Both the position numbers and the translations under genes were made by a program. Below are positions 35,256 to 58,204 of a stretch of DNA of 64,000 nt, piece after piece. The notes beneath the pieces are model-generated. The model worked only from the letters and a program-made list of their open reading frames with translations. It was not told where the DNA came from and made no database searches. Source of the stretch: Aptenodytes patagonicus (Eukaryota; Chordata; Aves; Sphenisciformes; Spheniscidae); assembly GCF_965638725.1 (NCBI RefSeq), contig NC_134951.1:75209068-75273067 (forward strand), given 5' to 3'. Every line of letters begins with the position of its first letter. The first letter of the stretch is position 1.

Positions 35256-35790
35256 ATGGCGGCGCTGGTGCTGGTGCTGCTGGCGGCGCTGGGCGGGCGG
35301 ACCGTGCTGCCGGGCGGGCGGTGCGCGGCGCCGCTGGCCGACCTGCGCTCGCAGATCTCGGGCATGGAGTCGCTGCTGGAGGAGTTTCGCCGGCAGCTGC
35401 AGCAGGAGGAGCCGGGACCGCCGGCGGCGGCGGCGACGGGCGGCGGCGGGGAGCGGTGCGGCGGCAGCAGCAGCTTCTCCGCCAGGCCCGACTCCATCAT
35501 CCGCACCAAGGACTCCATCGCGGCCGGCGCCACCTTCCTGCGGGCCCCCGCCGCCGTGGCGGGCTGGCGGCAGTGCCTGGACGCCTGCTGCGCCGAGCCG
35601 CGCTGCACGCTGGCCGTGGTGCAGGGGCCCGGCCGGCCGCGGGGGGCGGCGGCGGCGGAGCTGGGCTGCTACCTCTTCAACTGCACGCACCGCGGCCGCC
35701 CCGTCTGCCGCTTCGCCCCGCACCGCGGCTACAGCACCTACAGCCGCCGGCCCGCCGGCCTCGCCCCGCCGCCGCCCGCCGCGCCGCCGG
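35256..35790 (+). CDS. LRP11: LRP11 coding exon 1: signal peptide and MANSC domain
   Basis: The exon encodes residues 1-178 plus the first base of codon 179. Residues 1-13 ([13 protein letters not shown]) form a hydrophobic signal core. Residues 27-52 are a short amphipathic, coiled-coil-like stretch. The MANSC domain follows, with its hallmarks [10 protein letters not shown] (79-88), CLDACC (107-112), RCTLAVV (116-122), CYLFNC (138-143) and HRGYSTYS (156-163). The end of the exon codes a Pro/Ala-rich linker. The donor is G|GTAAGG at 35791. Poly-Ala and poly-Gly codon runs inside the domain probably reflect the very GC-rich island. The frame stays open upstream to 34827, but that extension would bury the signal peptide. 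Confidence 0.95.
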
Positions 35791-38700: not shown

Positions 38701-41700
38701 TGTTGGCAGGCCAAATCTGTATAAAGGACGGAGGAAGCAGAACAATTTAAGCCTGTTGTGTTCTCCCCCAAGAAAAAAGGGTTGCTCATAAAGTTGCAAC
38801 CCCTTTTCTAGAAAACAGCCGGCTCCAGCATCTCAGAGTGTTGATCTGGTATATCAGTTTTATATTGCTTATTTACGCTCAATCTAAATAATCATTAGAA
38901 ATGGAAGTTAAAAGATGCTTTATGAGCTTGATTTTTCTGCTAACCTGTGGCTGATAGTCCTTTACTCCCATGAGCAGTCAGTGGTTGTAAGGCATACTCC
39001 TGAGTATGCCTCCTTGCTTTTTTATGCTGACTTCTTAGAAGCATGTATTCCCCAGATTTGGAGGCGTTTCACTCTCTAAGGATAATGTATTCCATTGCTT
39101 AAAACTTTGCTGTGGAAAAAGAGTCTTTAGCTCAATAGGCTGTCTCTTCCCGTGCCAGATGTCTCTCTGAGGCCAGGGTTTTTTTAACTAGGGGAAGAGA
39201 CAGGCTGATTTGCCACTGATGTACCTTTCTGAGGATGTTCTGGTGTCTTACAAGCAAAGGCGTGGTGCCTCCATCCTTTGGGACCAGAGGCCTGAGTGTG
39301 GTCCCTCACTCATCTTTAGCAAAGAGCTGGTATGAATTTCTGTGACCTGCCCCAACGTGAAGTGGTCCTGCCATTGCAACTCAGGCTGCTGGCGTATAAA
39401 GTTAGTTCGGGAAGAGAAGATCCTTATTGCCTAGGGCCCAGGGGAAGTGGGGCATGTCTGTGCCCCTGCAAGGCATTGATTGAGTCATTTGAACCAGACA
39501 GGTGACCTGAAACCACTTCCCAAGGTAAAAGCAGAAGAATGGGCTGTGCTGTTTCAGGTTGGTCTCTTTTTGACAGTGATCGGTAAAGTAAATAATTGTG
39601 TGAAGACTGTACATAACTCATATAGACCAAATAAAAGTTGCCATGGCACCATAACGATGGTGTTTATTAACAATGAATTTTTTTTTTTTGCACCTAAATG
39701 TTGCTTTTTAAACATACTTGGTTTTGAGAACTGAGTGTATACAAATTAGGCAAAACTTCCTGTGCCAGCTGGATGAGCAAGAACTGTTTCGTACTTTCTA
39801 TTATTAGACCCTCTTTTCAGTTATTTGTACGTTTTCCTAACGTAAGGCATTTGCCTTGAAATTTTCTATGCCTTACCTACTTCTGAGAAAAACAAGAAAT
39901 AAAAAGTTTGCTGTTTAGTCAGTGATAAAAAATTGTCCCACTGCTCCGATGAGCTCCATGCCTTCGAGCAAGTTCTTGAAACTGGAGAGGAACACGTGCA
40001 AGAGAGAATCCCTACGCTGATGGGGAAGTGCCTTTTCTTTCCATGTGCAGCTCTGCCCACACTGAGTGAAGTTCATAGAATCATAGAATCATTAAGGTTG
40101 GAAAAGACCTCTAAGATCATCGAGTCCAACCATCGACCCAACACCACCATGCCCACTAAACCATGTCCCTAAGTGCCGCATCTACACGTCTTTTAAATAC
40201 CTCCAGGGATGGGGACTTAACGACTTCCCTGGGCAGCCTCTTCCAATGTTAAACCACTCTTTCAGTAAAGAAATTTTTCCTCATGGCCAATCTAAACCTC
40301 CCCTGGCGCAACTTGAGGCCATTTCCTCTCGTCCTATCGCTTGTTACTTGGGAGAAGAGACCAACACCCACCTCGCTACAACCTCCTTTCAGGTAGTTGT
40401 AGAGAGCGATGAGGTCTCCCCTCAGCCTCCTTTTCTCCAGGCTAAACAACCCCAGTTCCCTTCAGCTGCTCCTCATAAGACTTGTTCTCCAGACCCCTCA
40501 CCAGCCTTGTTGCCCTTCTCTGGACACGCTCCAGCACCTCGACGTCCTTCTTGTAGTGAGGGGCCCAAAACTGAACACAGTATTCGAGGTGCGGCCTCAC
40601 CAGTGCCGAGTACAGGGGCATGACCACTTCCCTACTCCTGCTGGCCACACCATTTCTGATACAGGCCAGGATGCCATTGGCCTTCTTGGCCGCCTGGGCA
40701 CACTGCCGGCTCATGTTCAGCCAGCTGTCGACCAACACCCCCAGGTCCTTTTCCGACAGGCAGCTTTCCAGCCACTCTTCCCCAAGCCTGTAGCGCTGCA
40801 TGGGGTTGTTGTGGCCGAAGTGCAGGACCCGGCACTTGGCCTTGTTGAATCTCATCCAGTTGGCCTCGGCCCATCGATCCAGCCTGTCCAGGTCCCTCTG
40901 CAGAGCCTTCCTACCCTCGAGCAGATCAACACTCCCGCCCAACTTGGTGTCATCTGCAAACTTACTGAGGGTGCACTCGATCCCCTCATCCAGATCATTG
41001 ATAAAGACATTGAACAAGACCGGCCCCAGTACTGAGCCCTGGGGAACACCGCTCGTGACCGGCCGCCAACTGGATTTGACTCCATTCACCACAACTCTCT
41101 GGGCCCGGCCGTCCAGCCAGTTTTTGACGGAGCGCAGAGTCCACCTGTCTAAGCCGTGAGCCGCCAGCTTCTCTAGGAGAATGCTGTGGGAGACGGTGTC
41201 AAAGGCCTTATTGAAGTCCAGGTAGACCACATCCACAGCCTTTCCCTCATCCACTAGGCGGGTCACCTGGTCATAGAAGGAGATCAGGTTGGTCAGGCAA
41301 CCATGCCTCTCATGAACCCGTGCTGGCTGGGCCGGATCCCCTGGTTGTCCCGCACATGCCTTGTGAGCGCCCTCAAGATGAACCGCTCCATAATCTTCCC
41401 CGGCACCAAGGTCAGGCTGACAGGTTGCGGCCTTGTGTTCAGTAGATGCTTTACTGAGCTTAACATCAATGTCCTTTACAGGATATCCTTTGCAGAGGTC
41501 ACGAGCAGAAAGCACCCTGGCACTTCAGGGTGCCGGGAACATCCCATGCCCAGAGAAGGAATGAAACTTGGTCAGGGAACTGCAGAATGATACGATCGTG
41601 TGGCTAAAGTTGTCAAATGCTGACTTGTAGAACCAGATTTTACCTATCTCTCTTCCCTGCGCTGCGCGAAGGTTGCAGAGCAAATGGCTTAAACCACTTC

Positions 41701-44700
41701 TCACAGGTCGTGTCACTTAACGTACCATGGGTTTTGTTAGTCTAACCTGAATAACTCGTGGTTGGATTGGCAAAAGTACTTAGTACTCACAATTTTAATC
41801 AAAAGGAATTGTACTTTGAATATAGCAAAATGCTACGAGTCCTAAATAGTCTGAAAATCAAGCTTTGATTGTCTTATATTAGGCACTTAAAATCGGTGGT
41901 CATTTCTGATTATTTTTAATCATTATGTTATTGTGCACTGCTTCACCAGGATGCCAGCTTATGTTAAATAAGCCTTTCACTCCTGTAATGATGTATTATA
42001 AAAAGAGACTAAAAGAGTATTAAGTTAGGCAGAGTGCTATAAAAGGTGTGCAGTAACTGCCATCTGAATATGTATGTGATTCATATTTAAACTGAATATG
42101 TATGTAATTCATATTTAAATCCATTTTCCTTAGTTCAGATTAAAAAAACACACTGATGCTAACAATCCCGTTGTATTAGTGAAACATCTGTGTACGTAGA
42201 GAGGTTTTCTATGCTTCTAATATAGCAGTTATTTCCTGAAGACGTCACTGAATATGGAACAGTTAACTAAAATTTAAGTAGATACTACTTCGCTTAACAA
42301 AATGTGCACTAAGGAACATGTCCTATCTTTCAGGAAGTTGCACAGCGGTGAATCAATACCTTAATCAAGAAAAAATACGTTTTATATAAATAATCACTCA
42401 GCTTCCCCTGAGAAATAACTGAGCTTCTCTTTTTTTTGCTGAAGAAGAAGAAGAATATGACAAGCCTCCACGGTGCAGGGCGGGACAAGATATTGTGCTG
42501 CAGTCACCCGTCGACTGGGTGCTTTTGGATGGCCGAGAAAGCTCAGATGACCGTGGGATTGTGCAGTACGAGTGGACACTGCTGCAAGGTGACTCATCGG
42601 TTGAAATGAAGGTACACATGCAACCTTGCACATGGCCAGTCATTCGCAGATTGTTGTGTTCGTTATAGCACAGTTTTAAATGTAGAGCTAAAAATATTAA
42701 ATATGTTCAAATGGTTATGGCTGCCAGGCACCAAACTTAGGATGACTGTACAACTTGAGCCTTTATTTCATAGAACCATAGAGCAGCCCAGGTTGGAAGG
42801 GATCTCGAAAGATCATCTGGTCCAACCTTTTGTGGGTGAGGGAGCCTAGATGAGATTATCTAGTGCCCTATCCAGTCACGTTTTGAAAACCTCTGGTGAT
42901 GGGGACTCTACCGTGTCGCTGGGGAGGTTGTTCCAGTGGTTATTTCTAGTGTTTTATACAGTTCATCTGTATCCAGGGTGGCATGGGACAGCCAGTAGCA
43001 AACAAGTAATACTAATACTAATACTCTACTGTATTTCAGCTCTGCTCTCTTTTGCCATTGTTTGCGCTCACTGCACTTGGTTTTTGGCTTCTGTGATCCA
43101 GGTTAGAGACACCTTAGTAATTCAGTTACTGAAAATAATAAGATATTTTCACCAGCAGTCTTCTGTCAATGCTCATGGAGAAACTGCAAAGAAATATGTG
43201 ATGTAGACCTTATAAGATATCTTGAGATACTGTTTTATTGCATCTATACAATTTCGGTGCATCTGTGCAATTTGGTTTCAACTTAAAACTAACCGTCAAG
43301 AGAGGGATTCTCCATCCTACCGTTCTTTGTGAATGCTCTAGGAGCAGCAGAAAAGGAAAGGAAAAATGTCTCAAACCCATAGAGCCTACTTACAGTCTGT
43401 TCGCAGCCCACAATATTCAGGGCTCAGCAGGGACTCCACCTAGAGCAGGAGGGACATGTTAAAGGGGAGAGGGTGTGGACCGTAGTCCTTGCTGTTGCTG
43501 AGGTGCTGCTGATGGATAGGAAGAGTTTAAACGGGACAGGATGAGCAACGGGAACAGTCCAAAACCCAAGAGGCCATGTGTACCAGTGCCACCATGAGCA
43601 GTACCTGACAGTTGCTGCTTATGTCTGCTCAGCTCAGTAACATCAGAGGCAAGTTGGACAAACTACCAATATCAGCAAAGTTGCTCAAGATTTGTAATGA
43701 TGGAGCAAACCAGCATTTTGCCTAACATAAAGAGCTAGCTAAATGCATTGAAACCTAAAATTGTCATCCATGGAAAAACTCAATGGAGCAATTGGTTATT
43801 CCCTAGTCTCCTGGAGGGCAGTGTAGGTAACGCGTAGGTAATTGAAAATCACCATGTCATGGTTAGGAAACATGCTGCTGGATGAACCCTAAGAAGACAG
43901 TTGGGTGTCTCTGGTGAATAGTTGCTGAAATCTATGCACAAGTAATTTTTTATGACCATACTCCTTGCAGAAAACACAGCAGGGGTATTCAAAAGTATTA
44001 GTTCAGCCAGTGCTACGTACTTTTGCAAGTTTTATCTTCTACTGCAAGATCCACATCTGTGGAAGGGTGACTACAGTCAGCCAGTTCTGAACTACTTGAG
44101 GCTGTATTGCAATTTGAAACTATGTCAAAGACCACTGTGAGTTTGTTTATCTTCATTTATTATTTTATTGGCTTGAAAATTAAAAAGTCAAAAGGCTTTC
44201 ATAAGGAGTGCAAACAGCATAATACATAGAAAAGACCTGAATGAAGCTTTAAAAATAGTTGCTAGATATCATCTGGATAAAATGACCATTTTATTATCAA
44301 GAGTTGTTAATCTGACCCTTTGCAGCATTATTTTCTGTAAATAGCAATCAAATGCTCTTTAAAATTTTCTGTGACGTAGTAATATATCTAGAGTAACATA
44401 AAAATTAGAAGTTAATTAAAAAATTTAAAGTTCATGTTTTTACTTTTACTCAGAGTCACTCCATAAAATAGAGACCAGTCTTATATTTATTTAAACCTGC
44501 AAAATTAACATTAGTCTTGGTGATGTCTTTGTATTTGATAAATGAAAAAAATCTTGACACAGGTTTATATTTAGATAGATACTTTTCCACTGTGTTCAAA
44601 TGGGCAGGGTTTTCTCTCACAGACATGTAACCTGATGATTATCCATGTGCTGGTTTTGGCTGGGGTAGAGTTAATTTTCCTCATAGTAGCTAGTATGGGG

Positions 44701-47700
44701 CTGTGTTTTGGATTTGTGCTGAAAACAGTGTTGATAACACGGGGATGTTTTGGTTACTGCTGAGCAGTGCTTACACAGAGCCAAGGCCTTTTCTGCTTCT
44801 CACCCCACCCCACCAGCAAGTAGGCTGGGGGTGCACAAGAAGCTGGGAGGGGACACAGCTGGGACAGCTGACCCCAACTGACCAAAAGGATGTTCCATAC
44901 TATATGATGTCATGCTCAGCATATAACGCTGGGGGAAGAAGGAGGAAGGGGGCGACGTTCGGAGTTATGGTGTTCTGTCTTCCCAAGTAACCACTAGGCG
45001 TGATGGAGCCCTGCTTTCCTGGAGATGGCTGAACACCTGCCTGCTGGTGGGAAGCAGTGAATGAATTTGTTGTTTTGCTTTGCTTGCGCGTGCGGCTTTT
45101 GCTTTCCCTACTAAACTGTCTTTATCTCAACCCACGAGTTTTCTCACTTTTACTCTTCTGATTCTCAGCCCATCCCAGGGTGGGGGGGGAGTGAGTGAGC
45201 GGCTGTGTGGTGCTTAGTTGCCGGCTGAGGTTAAACCATGACAATCCATGATAATTTAATTTTTAGAGTTGAATTAATAATTGTGATTATTCATATAATC
45301 TTCAGTTGCTGTCTTTAGTGCTTTAGTTGCTATCCTGAAGTTACTGGATTTCATGTCATCTATTCTTAGAAAAGTATATGTGAATCCACAGGTACAAGGG
45401 AGAATGGGACTGTGTTTAAATAAGATAAGTTGCACTGCACTTATGTACCAAAGAATAAATAGAAGGCGCAGGAGTGGGAAGGACTGCTGTAAAGAGATCT
45501 TACCGTATTGTAGAAGGAAGCCAGTGGAAATTTTTTTTATGTTGTGACTGATTATTGCTTCTTAGTTTATTTGCTTCTCAGATTGCTACCCACATGCTGC
45601 AGCTGCACAGCTCTGTGACACTTGTGGGCAATTCTTGGGCTTTTTAAATGCTGATTATCTGGAAATCTACTGTCTAGTTTGAGCCAAAGTTTGTAAGAAA
45701 GCAGGTACAGTTGGGCATTGTTCAGGGCAGGACGGAGATAAAAAGGAAAGCACGGAGGTCACCAGAAGGAGTGGCGGCGTATTCAGAAGTCAGTGGTGTT
45801 TCTCTGGCTCTGCACTGAGAGGAGAGTTGGACTCCACGGCTCATGAGTTTTAAATACCATATTTGCTCTCCCAGCAGTCACAGTGAACAGCAGCAGGTGT
45901 TTTTTAGAGCATATTTATTTCTGTAATACAATAAAGAATAAAATTGTAGGGTGTCATATACTCCATCGAAAGGTCATCAACAGCAAGATCGGATAACTGA
46001 GTGCATTCAGATATTAGAAGAGGAAAGAAATTTCAGTTAGGAAATGCACTTACCAGATGAGAAAAATAAATTTATCAATACACCCTGCTATAAAGCTAGG
46101 TCTTGGACTCTATTATTATATTTGTCGAAAATTCCTGTTCTCTTTTAGGCATGAAAACCAACTTTAAACAAGCAAAACCAAAGGTCTTTATTGAATTTTG
46201 GTTTTAATATTAAAGATAATCACAGAGGCTTTTAACGTACCTTTCAGTTACTTATAAAGATAGCCCTATGTGCTTCATTTGTAAAAATACACTACGTGTC
46301 CAATAAAACTGCAGAGCTTCTTCGTAGTTACTGAAGTATGTGTTACTGAATCCTCAGACAGCTGGAGTTATTTGTGACTAGTAATTGTCACAAATTTAGA
46401 AAAAATTCAGCATTTGATACAAATACCATACTCATTTTACACAAACATTTCTAAATGACCATTGTACTAGTAATGCCAGTTTGGCACCTGTTTTAAATTA
46501 TCGTAAAATAAGTTATTGTACTATTTTTTTAATGATCTAATCCAATTTAAATTGTTTATGCATATCTCTCTTCCTCTCACATGACTTTCTGAAACCTAAT
46601 GTTTAGGTCACTCACTGTAGATGAACTTATTTGCAGTTCAGAGCAAGGCATGGAAATTCAGCGTGGGGTAAGGAAAAATTCAGTGGCAATTTGTAAAAGT
46701 TGCAAGTGACTACATTAAATGTCGTACTGGACAGAGGTGGGCAGTCTTACTAATAAAGCAATGCTATCAGTCACCTGATCATAAATCAATGTAAAGCAAA
46801 AGTAACTTCTGTGAATTCATGTATATTGTCTAAAGACTAACTTGATAGAGAGCAAAATATTTCACTGCCTACCCTCTCAAATTACATTTCTAACTACCAA
46901 AAAATTGAGTTAAATTTATGGTCCCATTTATTCTCCGGTGCTAAGATCCACAGCTCCAGGTAATTGCATGTACCACGAAAAACAGTATGTAAATGTCAAG
47001 CATGTTTATTTTTACAAATGGATGCAAAAAAAGACCAAAACATTACAGGTTGATACACATGCTTGATTGGGCTGACCAGACTTAAGAGAAGTATTTAACC
47101 TGCGTGAAAAGCATTGTACAGAAATGAGTTCCTTCTTCCTAGAAGTTTATGGGTGGATCCTTAATACCTGTTTTTTTCCCCGCTGTGTTTCTTTAATCAG
47201 GTACCACAGCCAGGAACACTGAAACTATCCCACGTCCAGGAAGGCGGGTATATTTTCCAGCTAACTGTGACAGACACTGCAGGTCAGCGGAGCTCTGACA
47301 ACGTCTCTGTGACCGTTCTGCCCATGGTTCATTCTGCAGTAGGTGAGAAAATGACTGGAGCCATTGCCTGTGTGACACCCAGGGTATGATGTTCAGAGCA
47401 AGGGTCTTGATGGAGGCAGAAATCTTATTCTCCGTCTCTAGTGTATTATTTTGCCCTTATTACATAATGACCTCTCTTTCAGTTTTGAATTGCTGTTTCA
47501 GGCTGAGGAAGCAAGCAAGCATCACTTGTTTGTTACAGCAATAATACTTTCAAGCATTTAAATGTTCAGCCTTGTATTGCTAATAAGCGTGCAGGGTTGG
47601 AAAAATGAAATACTGCCGTATGTATCGGGCACATCGTAACAGTTCATTGTATAGTCAGACAGTGCGTGGAACGTGACAAGGCTTGTGCTGTAGAGAAGAC

Positions 47701-50700
47701 CCAGTTAAAAGCGGTTAATAGTAGGTGTGACACACAGACTAATAATAATATTGGCCTGCATCTGTAGTCTAAAAGATGGGATGGTTTCTTGTTTTCATGC
47801 ATTTAAGCTTTTCTGTGTAATGGTTGTTACCGAAGCCTTATGTTGCTGGGGAAACTGAAACTGGAATTGACCCATTATTTTAAAACTCTGAGCTCGAGAA
47901 ACACGTAAAAAGCATAAAAGGTAGAAAGTGAGTTAGATTTTGGTGGCTGTCAATTCTGCACTCTTTAATATAATAACTTCTAATTACATTGTAATTAGCA
48001 AGTTGCTAATAGAGATCTGCTGCTCTGGAACAAAGTAAAGGTTAAACTAGCATCATGACTATGTTCAGCTGAACCAGTAATAACTTTGCTCTGCACCAGT
48101 GCAGTATCTCTATGTGAGAGGGTAGTCCCAGTGGCAATAAGCTGGTATTGCAAAAAACCCGTTATGAGTCTGTTTAATAATGCCTGTATTCCAGTAATGG
48201 ATGATAGAGTTGTATTCATTAACGTTTAGTTCAGCTAAAGCAGCCAGAGAGGTTTGGTGATTTATTTATTTGCTGCTGTGGGTATCTGTGGTATCTTCTG
48301 GGTGGAGCACGCGGAGGATTTGCTGCCTTTTTTCTTCTTCTAATTCCCCAACTCCATTTGCAATTCAAGTGCTACTACTATAGTTAAACCAGTCAACGGT
48401 GCCTTAATGCATGCAAGACTGGTGCTATTATTAGTGCTGAAGTTTAGGAGGTGCATTTTCTAAGTATGATTTTAGGGGTTTTAAATAGGCGCCTGTGTTC
48501 CTGCCGTACTTTCCTTAGCGTTGCGCAGCTTTTCGGTACATAGCAGGATAACAACCAAAGGCTGTGACCTCCTTATGCAAATCGATTTGCTGTTACAACA
48601 TTAACCAAACACTGAATTCGATAATGCTTTACAAAGCAATGAACTACACCGCTGTTGGAAAGACAAAAGCACAGATGCAAACACTTGATAATTACAAGGT
48701 CAGAACGGGTTTCAGGAAAGCTTTGAGTATGCAAAATGAAATGTCCAGGGACACTTTCCATTTCCAGGGGAATCTAAATATTAAAGCAGGCAGCAATCAG
48801 TTCTTTCTGGTGAAGGTCACTTGTGAGACCTTGCACTTAGTCCTGTTCTGGCATGTGCTGTATTGGATTTACATTGCTGATGTAAATAAATGACGAGCAT
48901 TCTTTTAGTATTTTAATTAGGTTGCAGAAAACATGCCATAAAAGATTCCATGTAGTCCATATGTGTGCGTGTAAAATAACGTATTGTCAGAAATACAGAA
49001 TGGGTATGTAGTAGGAATTATGTGTTGGAGAGATGCAGTTATAGCCATAGAGATTTAATTTATTTATTTTCAGGACTGTCCTGGGTATTTTAAGCCTGGG
49101 AAGATCTCCTTTCAGCTTAGGCCAGCAGAGTTTAAAGTGCTGTGGGGGTGCTGCACAAGGTGGAAAGTACAACAGCCTCCAGGTTGAGTATTCCTATAGT
49201 AAAGAGATTGCCAGAATAGTGATGAGGGGGTCCCAGGAACAGCTATTAGTTATATTAGCTTCTGTGTCAATATAGCGTCATATAGCTGAGTCCGGCCTTT
49301 CTTCAACTTTCTGCCTTGTTCGTGGTCCTTCTCGGCGTAGCATGCTTTTGCTTTTTCCTCGGTGCTGCAGATTTTAGTCATTGACTCAGTATTTACTGCT
49401 TGGATTTCTCTTCTGGTAATTTGGGAACTGTTTCTCAACAGCCTGTGTCGGGGTTTGCTCTCGCTACCAGTTTATCTGCGATGATGGCTGCTGCATTGAC
49501 ATCACATTTGCTTGCGATGGCGTGAGACAGTGCCCTGATGGATCGGATGAAACTTTCTGCCAGAACTGTAAGTGCACCGGGCCACAGTGTAGATTGTGAA
49601 AGTAACCGCAGCCTGAATGACCAAAGGGAAACGATGGCCCTCCTGTGGCCTCTCTCCCCGTGAGCAAGCAGCTTGCAGCCACCATAGAGCATTTCATTGG
49701 AAATAGCACATGGGAAGGTTTAATGTCCGCACACAGCAGATGCTCAGAAATGAAGTCCCTTTTCTTCAGAGCATACCAAAGCTGTCAAAGATCCCCAAAT
49801 GACAGGTTTTCTGTCAGAGTTCTCAACATTTAAAAAATCAGTTCTTCGCTTGCTTGATGATTATGGAAACAAGGACCCTGGTCTTGATCTGAAAGGGTGT
49901 CTCAGAGGTATGCTTCAAAGTGCAGTTACGCACCTTGCAAGAATCTGAAACACTGGAAATGTGAGCACGTAGGGGAACCAGTTGATTCACCAGCACTCTT
50001 GGCTTTCATTAGTCATCCTCAATACATGCCCATGCTCAGCTAAGTGAACAAAAATCATCAGTGAGTGAATTGGCACGATGGCTAACCACTCTTTCATTGA
50101 TATTTCAGTTGCTGGATTTCGCTTTAGGGTTCATGTCTATACTCTTGCTTAAGAACTGACAGCGGGCAATTGTTAACTTGCTACGTATCTGGAACTCACA
50201 TTCATCTTATGTCTGAACGTGATGAACTTGTTTAGCCTGCCTTAAGGCCAATATCACAGGGTCTTCCATCAGAACGCTCCCATTCCCTTCAATTCGATAT
50301 AAAAATTATGATTTTTGTTTCTGTTAACACAGTCAGCCCGGGCCGGAAGACCGTGACTCACGCGGCTCTTGGCACTACCCAGCAAAGGACTGTAAACACA
50401 GATGAAAAATTCTCTGCAGAAAACACCCTGAAAGCCACTGCCAGAAATCAACTGCTTTTTTCAGTGGACGCAGACATGTCTAACCAATCGCTTTCTCAGG
50501 GACCAAAGAAACAAATCAGTGGATTTGTGCCAGGTAAGAACTGAAATGAACCAGTTTCAAGAAATCTTTCTCTCTTGTGGAAGAAAATGTCTTGCACCTT
50601 AAATTTAATTAAATTGTCTTTTGGTTCCTGGCTAAGAGTAAAAATTTGCAAATGTACAAAATGCAAAAGAAGCTTGTAATAATTAAGTTACAACTAGGTA

Positions 50701-53700
50701 TTGCTTTATAAAGTCAAGTCTGGTTCTTACCAGGTGCAAAAAGAAAGTTAAAATGTAGAAATGCTAGGAAAAGAATACAATCTTAAGGAACAAAACGTGC
50801 AGTGAGCTAAATACAAATTCTGCCACAGGTTCAGCTGTGTAAGCTGATGTATAAGGCTCTTTAAATCTGTAGGGGGTACCTTCAGGAGAACATAACAAAG
50901 TACTGTTCAACTTAGATGAGAGTAATTGCATCTCTCCTGGTGCTAATCGATGACTTTTTTTTTCCCCCCTGAAGTAATGTCTTGATTATTATGGGCACTT
51001 TTTTCCTGAAGTGTGTCTCCAGGGCAGGAGAAATCTTTTATCACTATAGAGACGGCTCAGTCTTTGGTAACAAGCAACCCCAGGTCCCCAGTAGTATTGT
51101 CCGTAGTGGCTGCAAGCCTGTTGTGAGTCAGTGTGTAGTGATGTTGCAGGCAGAGTCACCGATCCTTGCCTTGGTAAAACTCCAGAAGCTGCAATGAAAC
51201 TGGTGTGTCTTTTAAGGTTCTTGCTGGTGAATTAAAATGATCTGAAATGGCACTTGAAAGAAAGCAAAACTATGTGCACAGAGCCTAAAATGAGTGCGAG
51301 ACCTCCCACTTTTATTTCTTCAGAGTTCAGACTGATTCTTGCTGCCCAAGATGCAGCTAATTATAAACAGCTTTATTTTCTTGTTACAACAGAGCAGTGC
51401 TCAGTGCCCTCTGCTGCTGACTCTTGTAAAGGGCGCTTCCCTGGTTGGCACTTTGATGTTTCTTCAGATGCTTGTGCTTCATCTGTGGAGACCGCAGAGG
51501 GAGTGAAAGCAACGTTCTTCAAGAATTTGACTGCCTTGGTGAATGTGTAGGAACTGATAGCAAAATCCTCTCTCAAATGTTTCCCCCTCTTCTGGCAGTG
51601 TAGATGACCTCGGTGCTCCTTATTGGAATGACTTAAAATTCTGAAGTATGCCCAAAACCCTTCTCGCTCGCATAGTCCGGAGTGACAGCTGATACGGGGC
51701 CACCCAAACGAAACATCAAATTGCCAAAGGGCATTGCAGGCTCCAATGGAAAGTCAGCTGCCGAGTAGGTCTCAAAAACCATTGGGCTTGTGAATCCAGA
51801 AGTAAAACCAGAATTGAGGTCACCAACTTCGGCAACCTATAATCAGAGGTTATAATTGGAAGTGCATGTAAAAGCGTGGCACTTCTGCATAGTCATTTTC
51901 TGTGTTTACCCGTTGCACAGTTACTTACTTGCACCATTTTTGCTCTCAAGGTAGCCTTTTGCACAGCAGTAGACAATAAAAGAAAAAAAATTACCATAAA
52001 ACTAAAAAAATGTGATGGGACTTCAGTGATTAGTGTACTACCAGAAGCTGTTGTAATCTTTTTAATTTCAAACAGGCAAGATTTCCAGCTGACCATGTCT
52101 GGTTTTAATTCTTGTGGTTTTAATATTGCTCTTTTGACAAGGCTCAGTCAGAATTTAATTTCAGTTAAATGATACTTAAGGATTTCCTTCTAGGACCTGG
52201 TCCTTACTGACCCAGGAGCCCAATACTTTTAACCAAAAAAGCAGCAAACAGCTCAGCGAGTTTTTAAATTGCCTATGGATCAGTTCCAAAGAGGGTGCAT
52301 GTGGTGGGACATGAAGAGGTGCTAGGTACCTGGGTCCAAAGGGCAACCGCCAAAATCTGCTCTGAGTTGCTGTCTTCTCATGCAGTCACTTAAACTCTGT
52401 AGGAGTCACATGCTGTACGTTAATGATTCCCAGAGGTCCAGAGAGGTTCAAGTCCTGCCCCACTGGTAAGCACCACAATCTTTATGGAGTTGAGGAGACA
52501 GGTATCTAACCTGTTCCTAAAAATCCACCCAGAGCCATTAATTAGATTTCTCTCCATCACTGCAATCTCAAGGAGGTTACAGACCAAATCTAATAATTAG
52601 GTGCTACAAAAATGAGAGACACAGAAACACTGGAGCAGCTCCATGAAGCCTGCCTGGAAATGCGTTCAGGAGGGCAATAATTGCTAGACGCATTTTTGAA
52701 GAGAGTTAAGCAGCACTGAACAGAAATCATACCAACCGCCTTGAAAGTTCAGCAATTCCACTGGCAGAAATCCTGTTCTGGGATGGACTGTCTCCTGAGA
52801 CAGTGCTGGACCCGCTGCTGGTGCCAAGGCAGAACCTGTGCCTCCGAGTCACACTGTAAAGGTCTTCATTGGACCAAGACAATAATGTTGCATGTTGGCC
52901 TAGAGTTGACTTTGCAAGCATCCAGGCTCCTGATACACTATTATAAATAAATTTCAAAAATAATCTTTAATGGTTTTAATGTCAACATGGTGAAAAGCTG
53001 TCTACTTAAGGTACATAGTAAGGGATATTGCTTTACAGCGGCAGCACAGGGTCCAGCTTTTCACTTGAGAGCGCTCCATTCAGGGCTACATTTGTCTTAA
53101 TTCTTAGTTGGTATTTACAGATCGTCATGGAAATGCAAGTCAGGAAGGAAAACATGATGCTCTTAGATCCAGTGACTGCAAGGCAGACTAAGAGAAGGTG
53201 TTAATGTTAAGGGTAATTTACCTACTGGAGACAGCATGTGGCACATTCTAGGTGGCTGCTAGACATGATGTTTGATGTAGGAGCTTTCAGCTGACTTTTA
53301 AAGAACAGAATTTTTTTCCCAAGAAGTTGCAGGACTGGGGAGTTGCTTTGTTTTCTTTTTTACGTTTGTTTTTATTACAGTAGTAGTTACAGTACCAATA
53401 AAGACAGGTCCCATCTGCTACTTACCTCCCCATAAGCAGCTTTCGTCTCTGAGAATCCAATAAAGATGTCCAATAAATGGACCTCCTTGCCAAGGACCAC
53501 CATATTTATCTTTTCTCCATTTTAAAAGGAGCTGGGCTGAGCTGTAATGTTTCGGGCTGTGGGATAGTTCCCTGCAGCAGGAACGAGCTTTCTGCCTATG
53601 AAGATAATACTAAGGGAGATTTGTCCCAGAGTCCATTTTCTCCTGATAGTTTCTCTGTTCCCAATTTCCCTTAAGCTGCTTTCTTTACTCCAGTAGCCCC

Positions 53701-56700
53701 TCATATTTGGCTCTGACCTGATACAAGCTTTTTAAGGATTTACGCTTAAGTATGAAAAATGTGAAAATATGCAAGTCCAAGGTAAGGACTGTTTAAAACT
53801 TCTGCCTGACCTAGCAGGGGATCTATTCACAGTAAAGAGGAGGGAAAAAAAAAACCAAAACAAACAAACCCAAAAGTCATTCATTGTTGACAATGGGTGA
53901 ATCTTGTTCTGCACTCCTGCTTTTCCAGTGGGATTCCTCTGCAGCAGGGTCACTCCAGGGGAACACCAAGTCCAACTTAGAGATAACCTCCTCAGGCACT
54001 CAGGGCATGGAGTCTTCTGCAACAGACTCATGGTTTACTTTTGCCCAAGCTGGAAGGCCAAACATTTTCTTCCGTAGTTGGGAGCAGATGCAGGAAGAGG
54101 CATTTAATGTCGATAAAGGAGTCCTTTCCCTTTGCAGACATAGCTCCATAAGTGAAGTAACCCAGACTGCATCTCCTCCAAAGGCCAGCGCAGCATTCTG
54201 CATGGCTGCCTCCAAAGTGCCCCGGCATCCTTTTCCAGGGAAGCTCTCAAGCCCAGCTGCATATTCTGGCACTGCTGCACTTGTATTACGAATGTAGCAA
54301 AAATACAGTTGCAGCAAAGCACACTGGAGTGAGCAGTGGGCTGGTTTCTAAGCAGCAATAGCCAGTCTAGCAAACATGGTCATGCAGACGGGTTGAATTC
54401 ACAAGCAGCCTGAAGATTTGCACTCCCCAGCATAGCCAACTCAAGTGTATAAATCACCATAACAGCTTTGCATTCCGCTGGCACAGGGTCTCTGCCTCTC
54501 CCCAGGCTGCCCGCACCAGCTGTTCTGCAGTACTGTTCAGGGCTGGGATGACAATGTTTGACTGAGTGCCCAAACCTTAGTCATGCTTTTGCTGCAGAGG
54601 CATCGACAGCAGTAGCCATAACCTAGATCTCTAATTTAGGGTAACTGGAAAAGGCTATAAATTGCAATTTCCTAGGCACGGACTAGAAAATGAAGAGAAA
54701 GTGAAAACAAAACGAAACCCACGTAACATGCTTTATGTCAGGCTCCTAAACCTGTTTGGGGAAATCTCTCTTTGTTTTCTAGTTGATAACAGATGAGATG
54801 TTGAGCAGTATTGACTCTGATAGCCCCTCCAGTCCTGTAAGAACAGCCACAAGTCTTAACAAAACCCTACAAGCTTTATTGAAAGGATTCTTCTCCCCTT
54901 CCAAAATTTTCCCGCTAAACTTCTCTCCAGATATATTTGCCAAATGTTTTACAAGCGGTTGACTTAAATATTCCCTCTACTCAAATGGCAGGGAAACAAA
55001 TTTATAAAACAGGCATCCAGATCTAGCCTTGTCATGCAGGCTGGAGCAGCTCTAAGAAGAGCCAATGTCTTTTGGGTATTTCCAAACTAAAGACAAACAT
55101 TCATTTAATACCATTTAGGGAAGACAGAAGCAGAAAACAGCTGCTGGTTTTGGTCTCAGTTACATTCAGGTTATTTTGCACAGCTCTGATATCATACAGG
55201 TACCTTAAAGCCAGTACAGTTTACACTTAGGATTTCCTTAAGTCCCCTTTACATGTCAGAACAACTTAAAGAGCCCGAATGAGGAGGGGGGCTGTGGCTT
55301 GGTTCTAAGGCATTTCCTAGGAGGTGAAGTCGGTGTTTATGCTCCCCTAGCCATAGTGGCAGGGCAATAAAGCCAGAGCCTGGGAGGCTGTGTTGTGCCT
55401 TAGAGTGGGGACATTGGCACTAACCTCATAGAATCATTAAGGTTGGAAAAGACCTTTAAGATCATCAAATCCAACCTCATGCCAGTATCAACGAAACAAT
55501 TTAAGCTTTCATTAACGGTCATGTGTATTTGCTGCTGCCACTAGCAGGGACGTGTTCTGCAGCGCTTCGGAGCTGTTGATGGCAGGCAGGAGTTATGCGT
55601 GGTGCATGTTCCAAGCTAATTGACTTAAACACTTCCTCAACGCCCACCACTATATGTAATTCCAATTACAACGGTTCACATTCATATTTTACAGATCTTG
55701 TAGCATAGTATGTTTCCACTGGCACCGTCACAGTTCCGAGGGCTGCCAGCAAATACAACACAGCACAGTCAAAGTGCCCTTCAGTATTTATCAGTAAAAA
55801 ACACAGAGTCATTACATTTAAAAACATAGGCGTATTTCTGATTTTTGCAAGGGTGTGTTGGTGGATTAAGCTGTCACTCTTGCGTGAAGCGTCCCTGTAG
55901 CTATTGGTGTAGGACTTCAGTGGGAGTGCAGGAGGAGGGAGTCCCAGCTGAGTTACTCTTTGCTCCTGTGAAGCAAAACTGCAGCCGCCTGCACTCCCGA
56001 GATGAACGCTTCTTAGCAGCAAACTATGCGTTGTCTCTTCTTGTGTAGTTACGATGCTCTGCTATATCTTCTGTACTACGCAAAGCTGAAGTCACTCCAA
56101 GTCATCCTCTTTGAAATGTTTTCCCCACCTATTTTTATGTCTTCCAAGTACGTAAGTTCTGCATCTGTATGTGTCAGGTAACAGGCACAATTAAGGTAAT
56201 TTGTGTAGCCAACCTATGCGTTTCCCGCTTTACAAGTTCCAAGGGTGGAGATCAACATAACTTGAAATGGCTTCATTTTCACCTATATATAACTACGTTA
56301 GTAATGTTTTAGCTCAGATTGGTCTATACCTCATTATGGAAGTTTGTAAAAGAGAATTTATATCCATCTTTTTTTTCAGTGGAAAATGACCCACTTGGGT
56401 TTGGTTTGAGATGCATTATGGTTTGCGATGCAAAATTGAATTTACATTTTAGCTTTAGTTCACATTATTTCCAAAATTCAAGTTTTACAATAGGAGCCAG
56501 AAGTTCTTAAACTGTTGGGGGTCTTTTTTATTAAATTTAAGCACTTTCACATTATTTAATTCTAGTGTCCTGTGGCTAAGGCTTCCTGAGTCACTGAACT
56601 GCAATGTTCATTTATCTTGCTTGACTTTGTGCAGATAACAGTTCCTCAGGGAAAAGAACAGATGATAAAAATGGGAATGGCATAATTGTGCCAAAAAGAA

Positions 56701-57168
56701 ATCAGCTTGGAGGTGGTCGTCCAGTCCCAGAAACAGGTAAAACTGACCACGTGAATTCATTCTGAATTATATTAGTTTTTCAGTCAGGTGCTATAGATCC
56801 AGATACTATAGTCAAGAACTGAATAATGTACTTCCATATTCTGAACTGTTCCTAACTTGTATGATCATACAGTTTAGTTTCTCAGCATGAGTTGCTCCAA
56901 ATATTAGCACATAAGTGATAGACTAGCTGTATTTTTAAAGAAAAATTTCAGGTTTTCTCTACCAATTTCTCACTGTATTAAATAAAGTGTAATTTCTCTT
57001 AACCTCGTTGTAGGTGCTGTGTTACCCTTAGCCTTAGGCTTGGCCATCACTGCTTTACTGCTGCTTATGGTTGCTTGCAGACTGCGTTTAGTGAGACAGA
57101 AGCTTAAAAAAGCTCGACCCATTACATCTGAAGAGTCCGATTACCTCATCAATGGGATGTATCTCTAA
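35256..57168 (+). CDS. LRP11: LRP11, low-density lipoprotein receptor-related protein 11 (7 exons, 475 aa)
   Basis: This is a type I single-pass membrane protein of the LDL-receptor-related group. The joined coding sequence is 35256-35790, 42445-42611, 47201-47342, 49442-49567, 50333-50533, 56635-56736 and 57014-57168, 1428 nt in total, with all junctions in frame and GT-AG. Domain order: signal peptide (about 1-24), MANSC domain (about 67-165), PKD domain (about 185-275), LDL-receptor class A repeat (283-321), Ser/Thr- and Lys-rich stalk (324-424), transmembrane helix (426-446) and a 29-residue cytoplasmic tail. Length is close to the roughly 500 residues of mammalian LRP11. N-glycosylation sequons are at N142, N268, N374 and N392. 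The start at 35256 is chosen because it has a GCCATGG context and directly opens a signal peptide. Tandem acceptors at exon 2 may shorten the protein by one to three Glu. Intron 5 contains a decayed Kunitz exon. Confidence 0.95.
38452..38477. repeat. TA-rich microsatellite
   Basis: Interrupted TA/TAC dinucleotide run within intron 1. It has no other evident role. Confidence 0.7.
40074..41440 (-). mobile_element. CR1 LINE with most of the reverse transcriptase, antisense in LRP11 intron 1
   Basis: The 3' tail lies at 40074-40100 (CATAGAATCATAGAATC read on +), and the element runs leftward-pointing to about 41440. The minus frame 41515-40442 encodes the CR1 ORF2 reverse transcriptase, including [26 protein letters not shown] and the catalytic FADD box (complement of 40949-40960), followed by the connection region. 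Two indels break the ORF. One, near 41300, moves the upstream RGM block into another frame. A one-base insertion, near 40460, moves the downstream LFSLEKRR block into another frame. The 5' part with the endonuclease is missing. Its close similarity to the copy at 6906 suggests the same young subfamily. It is non-autonomous. Confidence 0.95.
42064..42119. repeat. 28-bp tandem duplication, one mismatch
   Basis: The unit beginning CTGAATATGTATGT occupies 42064-42091 and is repeated directly at 42092-42119, with one G-to-A difference. It lies about 330 bases upstream of exon 2 of LRP11. Confidence 0.9.
42445..42611 (+). CDS. LRP11: LRP11 coding exon 2: first half of PKD domain
   Basis: The exon completes codon 179 and encodes residues to 234. 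Visible PKD features are a run of acidic residues (EEEEYD), [11 protein letters not shown] (the DGR turn of a PKD fold) and [11 protein letters not shown] (the YxW strand). The acceptor is one of four successive AAG trinucleotides after a CTTCTCTTTTTTTTGCTG tract. The first, ending at 42444, is chosen as the AG nearest the pyrimidine tract. The donor is AAG|GTACAC at 42612. Exon phase is 1 at the start and 0 at the end. Confidence 0.93.
42769..42945 (-). mobile_element. CR1 LINE 3' fragment, antisense
   Basis: Read on +, it begins CATAGAACCATAGAGCAGCC and continues with the CR1 3' UTR complement (GGTTGGAAGGGATCTC, GGTCCAACC) and the start of the ORF end (CTCTGGTGATGGGGACTC). Only about 175 bases of the 3' end are present. 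It belongs to a different CR1 subfamily from the copy at 40074. Confidence 0.9.
44646..45243 (+). mobile_element. Solo LTR of an avian ERVL-type endogenous retrovirus
   Basis: The 598-bp element begins TGTGCTGG and ends ACCATGACA, giving the canonical TG...CA termini. It is flanked by a perfect 5-bp target duplication, ATCCA at 44641-44645 and 45244-45248. The sequence of the 3' third (TGTCTTTATCTCAACCCACG, then a G-run and GTGAGTGAGCGGCTG) is of a type widespread in bird genomes. No internal retroviral sequence is present, so it formed by recombination between two LTRs. It sits in intron 2 in the same orientation as LRP11 and retains its U3-R-U5-like layout, with ACTAAA at about 45110 in place of a polyadenylation hexamer. 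It encodes nothing. Confidence 0.92.
47201..47342 (+). CDS. LRP11: LRP11 coding exon 3: second half of PKD domain
   Basis: Residues 235-281 plus the first base of codon 282. It contains the PKD strands [17 protein letters not shown] and the typical [16 protein letters not shown] ending. N268-V-S is a glycosylation sequon. The acceptor is TTTAATCAG|GTACC and the donor is G|GTGAGA at 47343. It joins exon 2 in phase 0 and exon 4 in phase 1. Confidence 0.95.
47343..49441 (+). other. LRP11: LRP11 intron 3
   Basis: The 2.1-kb intron has no recognisable repeat or exon. It runs from GTGAGA to TTTCTCAACAG. Confidence 0.85.
49442..49567 (+). CDS. LRP11: LRP11 coding exon 4: LDL-receptor class A repeat
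   Basis: Residues 282-323 plus the first base of codon 324. The exon codes exactly one LDLa module. Six canonical cysteines are C287, C294, C299, C306, C312 and C321, with the Ca2+-binding acidic cluster CPDGSDE (312-318) and D307. Two extra cysteines (C283 and C298) flank the core and could pair with each other. Both exon ends are phase 1, the standard symmetric arrangement of shuffled LDLa modules. The donor T|GTAAGT at 49568 is a perfect consensus. Confidence 0.96.
49568..50332 (+). other. LRP11: LRP11 intron 4
   Basis: A 765-base intron running from GTAAGT to GTTAACACAG, with no recognisable element inside. Confidence 0.85.
50333..50533 (+). CDS. LRP11: LRP11 coding exon 5: extracellular stalk
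   Basis: Residues 324-390 plus the first base of codon 391. The sequence is rich in Thr, Ser, Lys and Gln with no cysteine, consistent with an extended and possibly O-glycosylated juxtamembrane stalk. N374-Q-S is a sequon. The exon is symmetric (phase 1 at both ends). The acceptor is TTAACACAG and the donor is G|GTAAGA at 50534. Confidence 0.9.
51393..51546 (+). pseudogene. Relict Kunitz/BPTI-domain exon in LRP11 intron 5
   Basis: A pyrimidine tract and intact acceptor TTGTTACAACAG (51381-51392) precede an open stretch. Joined to the phase-1 end of exon 5, it reads [20 protein letters not shown]. Kunitz cysteines occur at the positions of BPTI C5 (51398), C14 (51425) and C30 (51473), with exact spacings x8 and x15, and Lys at P1 directly after C14. 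After C30 only two bases separate TGT from the TTC codon (51478) where six are expected, so the frame is lost. In the shifted frame the spacings x12 and x3 to C51 (51532) and C55 (51544) are again exact, but the C38 codon is CGC (Arg, 51493) and the aromatic before the Gly pair is Cys. Inclusion of the exon would meet TAG at 51548. A weak donor GTAGGA follows at 51547. Confidence 0.85.
55427..55484 (-). mobile_element. CR1 LINE 3'-end fragment, antisense
   Basis: Read on +, the string CATAGAATCATTAAGGTTGG, followed by AAAAGACCTTTAAGATCATC, is the complement of a CR1 3' terminus and is nearly identical to the tail at 40081-40125. Only about 60 bases inserted or survived. Confidence 0.9.
56635..56736 (+). 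CDS. LRP11: LRP11 coding exon 6: membrane-proximal stalk
   Basis: Residues 391-424 plus the first base of codon 425. The sequence is hydrophilic, Asn-, Gly- and Lys-rich, with a sequon at N392 (NSS) and a Gly-Gly-Gly-Arg-Pro turn near its end. It is symmetric phase 1, with acceptor TTTGTGCAG and donor G|GTAAAA at 56737. Confidence 0.9.
56737..57013 (+). other. LRP11: LRP11 intron 6
   Basis: A 277-base intron, the shortest in the gene, with no additional feature seen. Confidence 0.85.
57014..57168 (+). CDS. LRP11: LRP11 coding exon 7: transmembrane helix and cytoplasmic tail
   Basis: Residues 425-475 and the stop TAA (57166-57168). [20 protein letters not shown] is the transmembrane segment. 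It is followed by a basic stop-transfer region ([13 protein letters not shown]), which gives a type I topology. The tail ends [13 protein letters not shown]. It contains E465-S-D-Y-L-I, which fits the acidic dileucine sorting pattern [DE]xxxL[LI], and two tyrosines. The acceptor is CTCGTTGTAG. Confidence 0.95.
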
Positions 57169-58204
57169 AAATTGGATTTAGGTCAGTTGTTTTCTCCCCT
57201 TTCTCCTGTGTCCATGAACCTCTGCCTCTATAAAAGGACCAAAACCTTTAGTTAAGTTTCAAGCGTAGAAGCAGCCTACGGGATGAGGAACATGTTCTTC
57301 CCCTTGGGTGATAAAATAAAAAAGTGGGTAGATGCCTGCGCTCAGAAAATAAGAAGCATTCAGGCTCCAGAGAGTAGCTCCAGTTGGCTCTTGTGCAGAA
57401 GACACTGCAAGGTGGGGACACCCCAAACTGGATGTGGGGTGCCCTTGCCCTCCCCGCAGCAGTCAGGGTCCCAGCCGCAGCAGAGCATGCCCCGGGGCCA
57501 AGGCACAGGAGCAGCCAAGGCCCAGCAGCCCCAGCTGCGCTGGCTGAGGCGTAGAGGGAAGCCTGTGCCACCCTGCTCTTCTCAGTGCTGCCACCACTGT
57601 GCTCCGCTCAGGGGACCGGGACGCTCCAGACCAATGCGTTACTTCACTGTCCAGCAGAGACTGATGTGGGTACTTTCCACCTGATGCACTGGGAGTATTT
57701 TCATTAAAGAATTTATCTTGCTTTGTTAATTAAAAGCAATCGCTATCTGAGCACCAGCTTTTGTAATGGAATTTGGGATTTAAGGAACAAAGCATCTTTT
57801 TTTCATTCGTAGTTTAAACCTCTGTGCAGCTAACGGAGAGTCATGCTTACTAAATGCTAAAATGAAAAAATAGAAGTCCTCGGCGGATGAGTTCGGACTT
57901 ACCAGTGCTCGACAGCAGTCATGTGCAATCCCAGAGCTATGTCTCTCCTCGGAGCTCAGGGCTTGTTCAGCCTTTTCCACCCCTAGCTCGACACCCTCCA
58001 CAGCGTGAGAGAGCAGCACGCAGCGGCTTTTACCCGAGACGCCGGAGTGTAGGATTCCTGCTGGTTATCCCATAGCTCCCTGCAAAGCTTGAAAGCTTCG
58101 GCAACCTGCCCTCACCCCAGCAAAATTCTCATAGAATTAGAGCAAGTAATTGATATGTGTGAGTGAACTTCAGGTGTGTTAACAGTAAAATGTGTACAGT
58201 ACAT

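Follow-up and report, generated by a model that had tools for sequence, protein, structure and literature searches.

The window analysed here, a stretch of 64,000 nucleotides of the Aptenodytes patagonicus genome, carries on its forward strand the gene LRP11, whose seven exons were mapped with the aid of the human LRP11 sequence (Table 1). Once joined, the exons form an intact frame of 475 codons that is interrupted by introns of phases 1, 0, 1, 1, 1 and 1, in that order. Pfam searches of the joined protein revealed MANEC (2.8e-24), K319L-like_PKD and Ldl_recept_a (3.9e-7) domains, and this MANEC-PKD-LDLa-transmembrane order, followed by the LRP11 cytoplasmic tail, assigns the gene to LRP11; its last exon is 96% identical to that of human LRP11. 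LRP11 is classed as a relative of the lipoprotein receptors and, to our knowledge, little has been established about its function. When the conserved last exon was used as a query against viral and prokaryote contigs, no relative was returned. Within intron 1, an open frame on the reverse strand (40445-41524) encodes a reverse transcriptase (Pfam RVT_1, 3.5e-23) that is probably of a CR1-type LINE, while no tandem repeats or known RNA families were reported between 50300 and 57200.

Table 1. Exons of LRP11 and parts of the Kunitz relic in the window
Feature	Position	Strand	Remarks
LRP11 exon 1: start codon, signal region, MANEC/MANSC	35256..35790	+	phase 1 end; Pfam MANEC
LRP11 exon 2: PKD first half	42445..42611	+	phase 0 end; boundary after VEMK equals that of SPINT1 in the same genome
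LRP11 exon 3: PKD second half	47201..47342	+	phase 1 end
LRP11 exon 4: LDLa	49442..49567	+	phase 1-1; Pfam 3.9e-7; aligns with HAI-1 LDLRA
LRP11 exon 5: stalk, 67 codons	50333..50533	+	phase 1-1; donor G/GTAAGA at 50534
Relic acceptor AG	51391..51392	+	5 nt ahead of the C5 codon, phase 1
Relic 5' part, in frame	51393..51475	+	E-Q-C5, C14 (P1 Lys15), C30
Frame break	51476..51477	+	two bases remain, six expected, between C30 and F33
Relic 3' part, shifted frame	51478..51546	+	F33 to C55, 23 residues
Expected donor region	51547..51606	+	without phase-1 GT
LRP11 exon 6: second stalk exon, 34 codons	56635..56736	+	phase 1-1; tblastn E 0.002 (piece of human LRP11 searched in 50300-57170)
LRP11 exon 7: transmembrane helix, cytoplasmic tail, stop	57014..57168	+	

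Between exons 5 and 6, starting 859 nt past exon 5, a Kunitz domain can be read at 51393-51546 in two frames that are joined at a net loss of four bases right after C30. Its 5' part reads E-Q-C5-SVPSAADS-C14 and continues over fifteen residues to C30, and its 3' part runs in the shifted frame from F33 to C51-LGE-C55, with twelve residues between column 38 and C51 and three between C51 and C55. Compared with the six-cysteine Kunitz pattern (8, 15, 7, 12, 3), the spacings of 8, 15, 12 and 3 hold, the interval of seven is broken by the four-base loss, and five of the six cysteines are present, since the codon of column 38 is CGC at 51493 and encodes arginine. Columns 35, 37, 41 and 43 are occupied by Cys, Asp, Ser and Ser, respectively. 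The first-pass annotation had described a disabled Kunitz exon at these very positions, and its coordinates and details proved exact on re-reading, including the four cysteine spacings, the lysine at P1, the net deletion that leaves two bases where six are expected, and the replacement of C38 by arginine.

The whole domain thus has no single open reading frame. The frame that passes through the acceptor and the 5' part (51236-51550, forward strand) is open for 104 codons from stop to stop and terminates at the TAG at 51548-51550. One arm of an 18-nt inverted repeat (51445-51462 and 51710-51727, 94% complementary) lies in the relic and may be a chance occurrence; a second 18-nt inverted repeat (50524-50541 and 50723-50740, 83% complementary) is so placed that it could cover the donor of exon 5 once transcribed.

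Starting the exon at 51393 in phase 1 gives E-Q-C, and this phase-1 acceptor stands at the same distance of 5 nt from C5 as those of both SPINT1 Kunitz exons, KD1 and KD2. In a survey of the genome that took the best-scoring AG within 40 nt for each Kunitz domain, the 5-nt spacing was found in 10 of 29 domains and the phase of the relic in 23 of 29. Scored with a splice matrix, the relic acceptor reaches 2.44 and ranks 29th among the 505 AGs between 50534 and 57013, directly ahead of the working exon-7 acceptor, which scores 2.38 with the same matrix and ranks 30th. Downstream, no phase-1 GT donor was found in the 60 nt after C55. Among the Kunitz domains of the genome, 26 of 29 have a GT candidate at no more than 40 nt, and for 21 of these the best-scoring candidate lies in phase 1. 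Since a phase-1 donor is missing, the relic cannot be spliced in as it formerly was, and its inclusion would shift the frame; together with the frame break at 51476-51477, the absence of an in-phase donor identifies the element as a relic and not as a living Kunitz member. With regard to splicing, the first-pass annotation was likewise borne out: the acceptor is intact and in the correct phase, the exon-5 donor and its phase 1 are in place, and the donor damage that had been called probable corresponds to the missing phase-1 GT.

The Kunitz likeness was evaluated with a one-break profile scan of both strands, for which a profile was built from 11 Kunitz domains whose sequences came from PDB outputs, with HAI-2 KD1, APP and TFPI domains among them; one frame break was allowed, between column 3 and about column 46, with a shift of 1-6 in either direction. 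Unaided, the scan returned 51398 as its best site, with a shift of -4 after profile column 26, which is C30, and a score of 29.5 bits. Among 100 order-3 Markov windows the highest score was 0.8 bits, and among 100 column-permuted profiles run on the real window it was 2.0 bits, corresponding to Gumbel p values of about 8e-8 and 8e-7, respectively. In a local, gap-tolerant scan the relic again came first, with 29.7 against 19.9 for the next site elsewhere in the window and a maximum of 22.1 over 64 random 16-kb single-strand stretches. The first-pass annotation had proposed a search with the Kunitz HMM as a check. In that search the 5' frame alone gave 19.7 bits (PF00014, E 9.5e-4), under the 21-bit cut-off, and the read-through relic, with XX at the break, gave 29.1 bits (E 1.2e-6) and cleared it. 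The subthreshold score of the 5' frame is what could be held in favor of a chance resemblance, but the margins over both sets of one-break controls and over the random stretches reject that origin, and we consider its probability negligible.

Comparison of the host gene with SPINT1, which encodes HAI-1, revealed a close structural correspondence. The alignment of LRP11 to the ectodomain of HAI-1 reaches E 9.7e-35 and is colinear over MANEC-PKD and LDLa, and both genes share the MANEC-PKD-LDLa order and a transmembrane helix. SPINT1 of this genome (C7) shows phase 1 at the end of its MANEC exon, phase 0 at the split within PKD, phase 1 at the PKD end and an LDLa exon of phase 1-1, so that the phases of its four corresponding introns equal those of LRP11 introns 1-4 (1, 0, 1, 1). 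Three boundaries fall at the same residue in both genes, namely the PKD-internal intron after VEMK and the two borders of the LDLa exon. The linkers that hold intron 1 and the PKD end differ between the genes by one to a few residues. Because the sequences are colinear and the intron phases are shared, we regard LRP11 and SPINT1 as paralogs of common descent. The PKD domain is also related to that of KIAA0319L (E 2.4e-28; Pfam K319L-like_PKD), and LRP11 exon 1 weakly matches the KIAA0319 N-terminal model, below the cut-off of that model.

The correspondence extends to the slot of the relic, as SPINT1 likewise has a Kunitz exon after LDLa (KD2). In SPINT1, however, two Kunitz exons are intact, KD1 before LDLa and KD2 after it, whereas LRP11 here has one dead relic that, unlike in the SPINT1 layout, is flanked by stalk exons on either side. 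A counterpart of KD1 was sought in LRP11 intron 3 (47343-49441), between PKD and LDLa, where no Kunitz remnant was detected; the best local score there, 14.2, was also attained in 93 of 200 random stretches as long as the intron, and a KD1 relic in this intron was accordingly dropped. The MANSC-PKD-LDLa-Kunitz-TM layout proposed in the first-pass annotation is therefore supported by the colinearity with SPINT1, yet it has to accommodate a stalk exon of 67 codons before the relic and another of 34 codons after it. Similarly, the set of modules that had been attributed to SPINT1 holds, with the amendment that HAI-1 has two Kunitz domains; a review gives the domain order of HAI-1, with the LDLRA domain between the two, and describes HAI-2 as having neither MANEC nor LDLRA (PMC12940448).

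To place the relic among Kunitz domains, its read-through was compared with PDB chains by phmmer. The best matches were a chain with both HAI-1 Kunitz domains (1.3e-12) and the three-domain worm inhibitor SmCI (1.8e-12), followed among others by HAI-1 KD1 chains (best 7.6e-9), boophilin (9e-8), APP (3.1e-6), HAI-2 (7.3e-6) and bikunin (1.3e-5). Thus HAI-2, APP and bikunin belong to the same Kunitz family as the relic but score below HAI-1, and no TFPI chain appeared among the best 60 of 61 matches. A search of the genome itself (1.35 Gb, 618 contigs) yielded 64 candidates, all of which were scored; 29 of them were Kunitz matches at E <= 1e-3, and the relic was not one of these. Of the 29 domains read from 25 stretches, 26 have 51 residues and three have 52, and the 26 were compared with the relic. 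Over 49 sites, the domain labeled L031 shares 19 residues with the relic, SPINT1 KD1 17 and L010, which is APLP2-like by resemblance, 16, and the remaining ones of the 26 share at most 15. L031 lies with two further Kunitz exons, L019 and L013, within 40 kb of the same genome (C14:552773-589739). In the 11-domain panel, worm SmCI3 shares 17 of the 49 residues and human HAI-1 KD1 16, with APP, HAI-2 KD1 and HAI-1 KD2 tied at 15 and the rest at fewer.

By most scores the relic is therefore nearer to KD1 (16 of 49 for the human domain, 17 for that of the same genome) than to KD2 (15 and 13), although SmCI3 and L031 are ahead of human HAI-1 KD1 in plain identity. In BLOSUM62 scores against 26 own-genome and six other domains, a set without SmCI, human HAI-1 KD1 ranked highest (105), followed by own SPINT1 KD1 (96), L031 (95) and HAI-2 KD1 (94). 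A WAG tree of these 32 domains and the relic placed the relic with KD1 at a bootstrap of 72, whereas trees of the 26 own-genome domains and the relic (WAG, LG and JTT) gave no KD1 grouping, with supports of 11-39. The trees thus disagree on the subfamily of the relic. A KD1-like relic in the slot of KD2 could reflect a reordering, or a divergence of KD2 in SPINT1. At the reactive site, the relic has P1' Gly, P3' Phe and P4' Pro in common with HAI-1 KD1 and differs at P1, with Lys for Arg, and its former bait loop was probably trypsin-like. The P3' phenylalanine, which the relic carries in our alignment, has been named as a specificity determinant in HAI-1 (PMC12940448).

The state of decay was assessed at 14 near-invariant columns, in each of which no more than one of the 11 panel domains deviates. 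Eight are kept in the relic (C5, C14, C30, F33, G36, G40, C51 and C55) and six are altered (12, 35, 37, 38, 41 and 43). According to the codon reading, each of the six altered residues can be reached by a single transition, and changes of this kind in the core would match what is expected of unconstrained decay. The relic is free of stops and has one indel only, a somewhat milder decay than the lost core residues suggest. A simulation of neutral decay, which depends on the assumed indel ratio, CpG weight and ts/tv, favors about 0.15-0.3 substitutions per site, so under these settings the loss would be old. Avian DNA accumulates substitutions at a rate near 2e-9 per site per year, and the simulation combined with this rate would very roughly put the age of the relic at ~75-150 million years, a figure to which we attach little weight.

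These observations are very probably explained by the decay of a phase 1-1 Kunitz/BPTI exon that was resident in LRP11, a gene sharing with SPINT1 an ancestor of MANEC-PKD-LDLa-Kunitz-transmembrane layout. The main competing account, in which a Kunitz exon from another Kunitz gene reached the LRP11 locus in this lineage through exon shuffling or as a retrocopy and then died, with an ancestral LRP11 that had none, appears improbable. It could draw on the trees, in which the relic finds no settled place (own-genome supports 11-39), and on the nearest own-genome domain by identity being L031 (19 of 49) and not SPINT1; against it, the slot, the phase and the 5-nt acceptor spacing agree with those of the paralog SPINT1, the top BLOSUM score belongs to human HAI-1 KD1, and none of the 26 comparable own-genome domains is a close source. 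A recent insertion from another locus, named in the first-pass annotation as an outcome that would overturn an ancestral loss, is disfavored by the same comparison, and for want of any close copy among those 26 domains it was discarded as the source of the relic; an old insertion that has since diverged is a conceivable form of this improbable account.

A further reading would have the exon partly alive, in a minor transcript that uses the acceptor and yields either a frame-shifted exon subject to nonsense decay or, by internal polyadenylation, a secreted LRP11 that terminates at the 51548 stop codon. The acceptor indeed scores like the working one of exon 7, the frame from the acceptor to the TAG is unbroken, and an AATAAA, obtainable by chance, occurs at 51975-51980. 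With no phase-1 donor within 60 nt and the core Kunitz residues gone, however, we judge this reading, in both of its versions together, highly unlikely.

Under the preferred explanation, a decayed resident exon, LRP11 and HAI-1 would derive from one gene encoding MANEC-PKD-LDLa-Kunitz-transmembrane. If so, the ancestor of this LRP11 would have carried a Kunitz domain on its stalk, with LDLa on one side and the membrane on the other; we infer this ancestral domain from the relic and the paralog. The Kunitz domain would then have been disabled by the loss of the splice donor, the four-base frame break after C30 and core substitutions, among them the one that removed C38, which pairs with C14. 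Skipping a phase 1-1 exon preserves the reading frame and does no harm to the rest of the gene, and the remainder of LRP11 stayed intact, as a receptor-like protein that lacks the inhibitor.

Titles, abstract openings and passages of the open-licence literature yielded no report of a Kunitz domain in LRP11, and the gene does not occur in passages of the review that gives the HAI-1 domain order (PMC12940448). A MANEC domain in Lrp11 is mentioned in work on eel lipoprotein receptors, where the word Kunitz is absent from the main text (PMC9935665). LRP11 also occurs among eggshell membrane data (PMC6811977), and a table in a C. elegans paper sets AMBP, LRP11 and SPINT1 together beside the gene F32D8.7 (PMC7693530), a hint that LRP11 is placed with Kunitz genes in tables of homology.

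The dead inhibitor exon in the right slot and the shared intron phases link LRP11 to the HAI-1 family of membrane inhibitors, and the origin of LRP11 becomes testable through the same intron across vertebrates. The locus also provides a clear example of a domain lost through the decay of one symmetric exon while the remaining gene stayed intact. A broader proposal, which we consider evenly balanced between being right and being wrong, is that LRP11 is a disarmed sister of HAI-1, that the ancestor of both was a membrane-anchored Kunitz inhibitor directed at trypsin-like proteases, and that the LRP11 of some living vertebrates keeps a working Kunitz domain. If this is true, LRP11 with its Kunitz domain would be a regulator of matriptase- or HGFA-like proteases in those species, and LRP11 of the present lineage would be a receptor stripped of its inhibitor.
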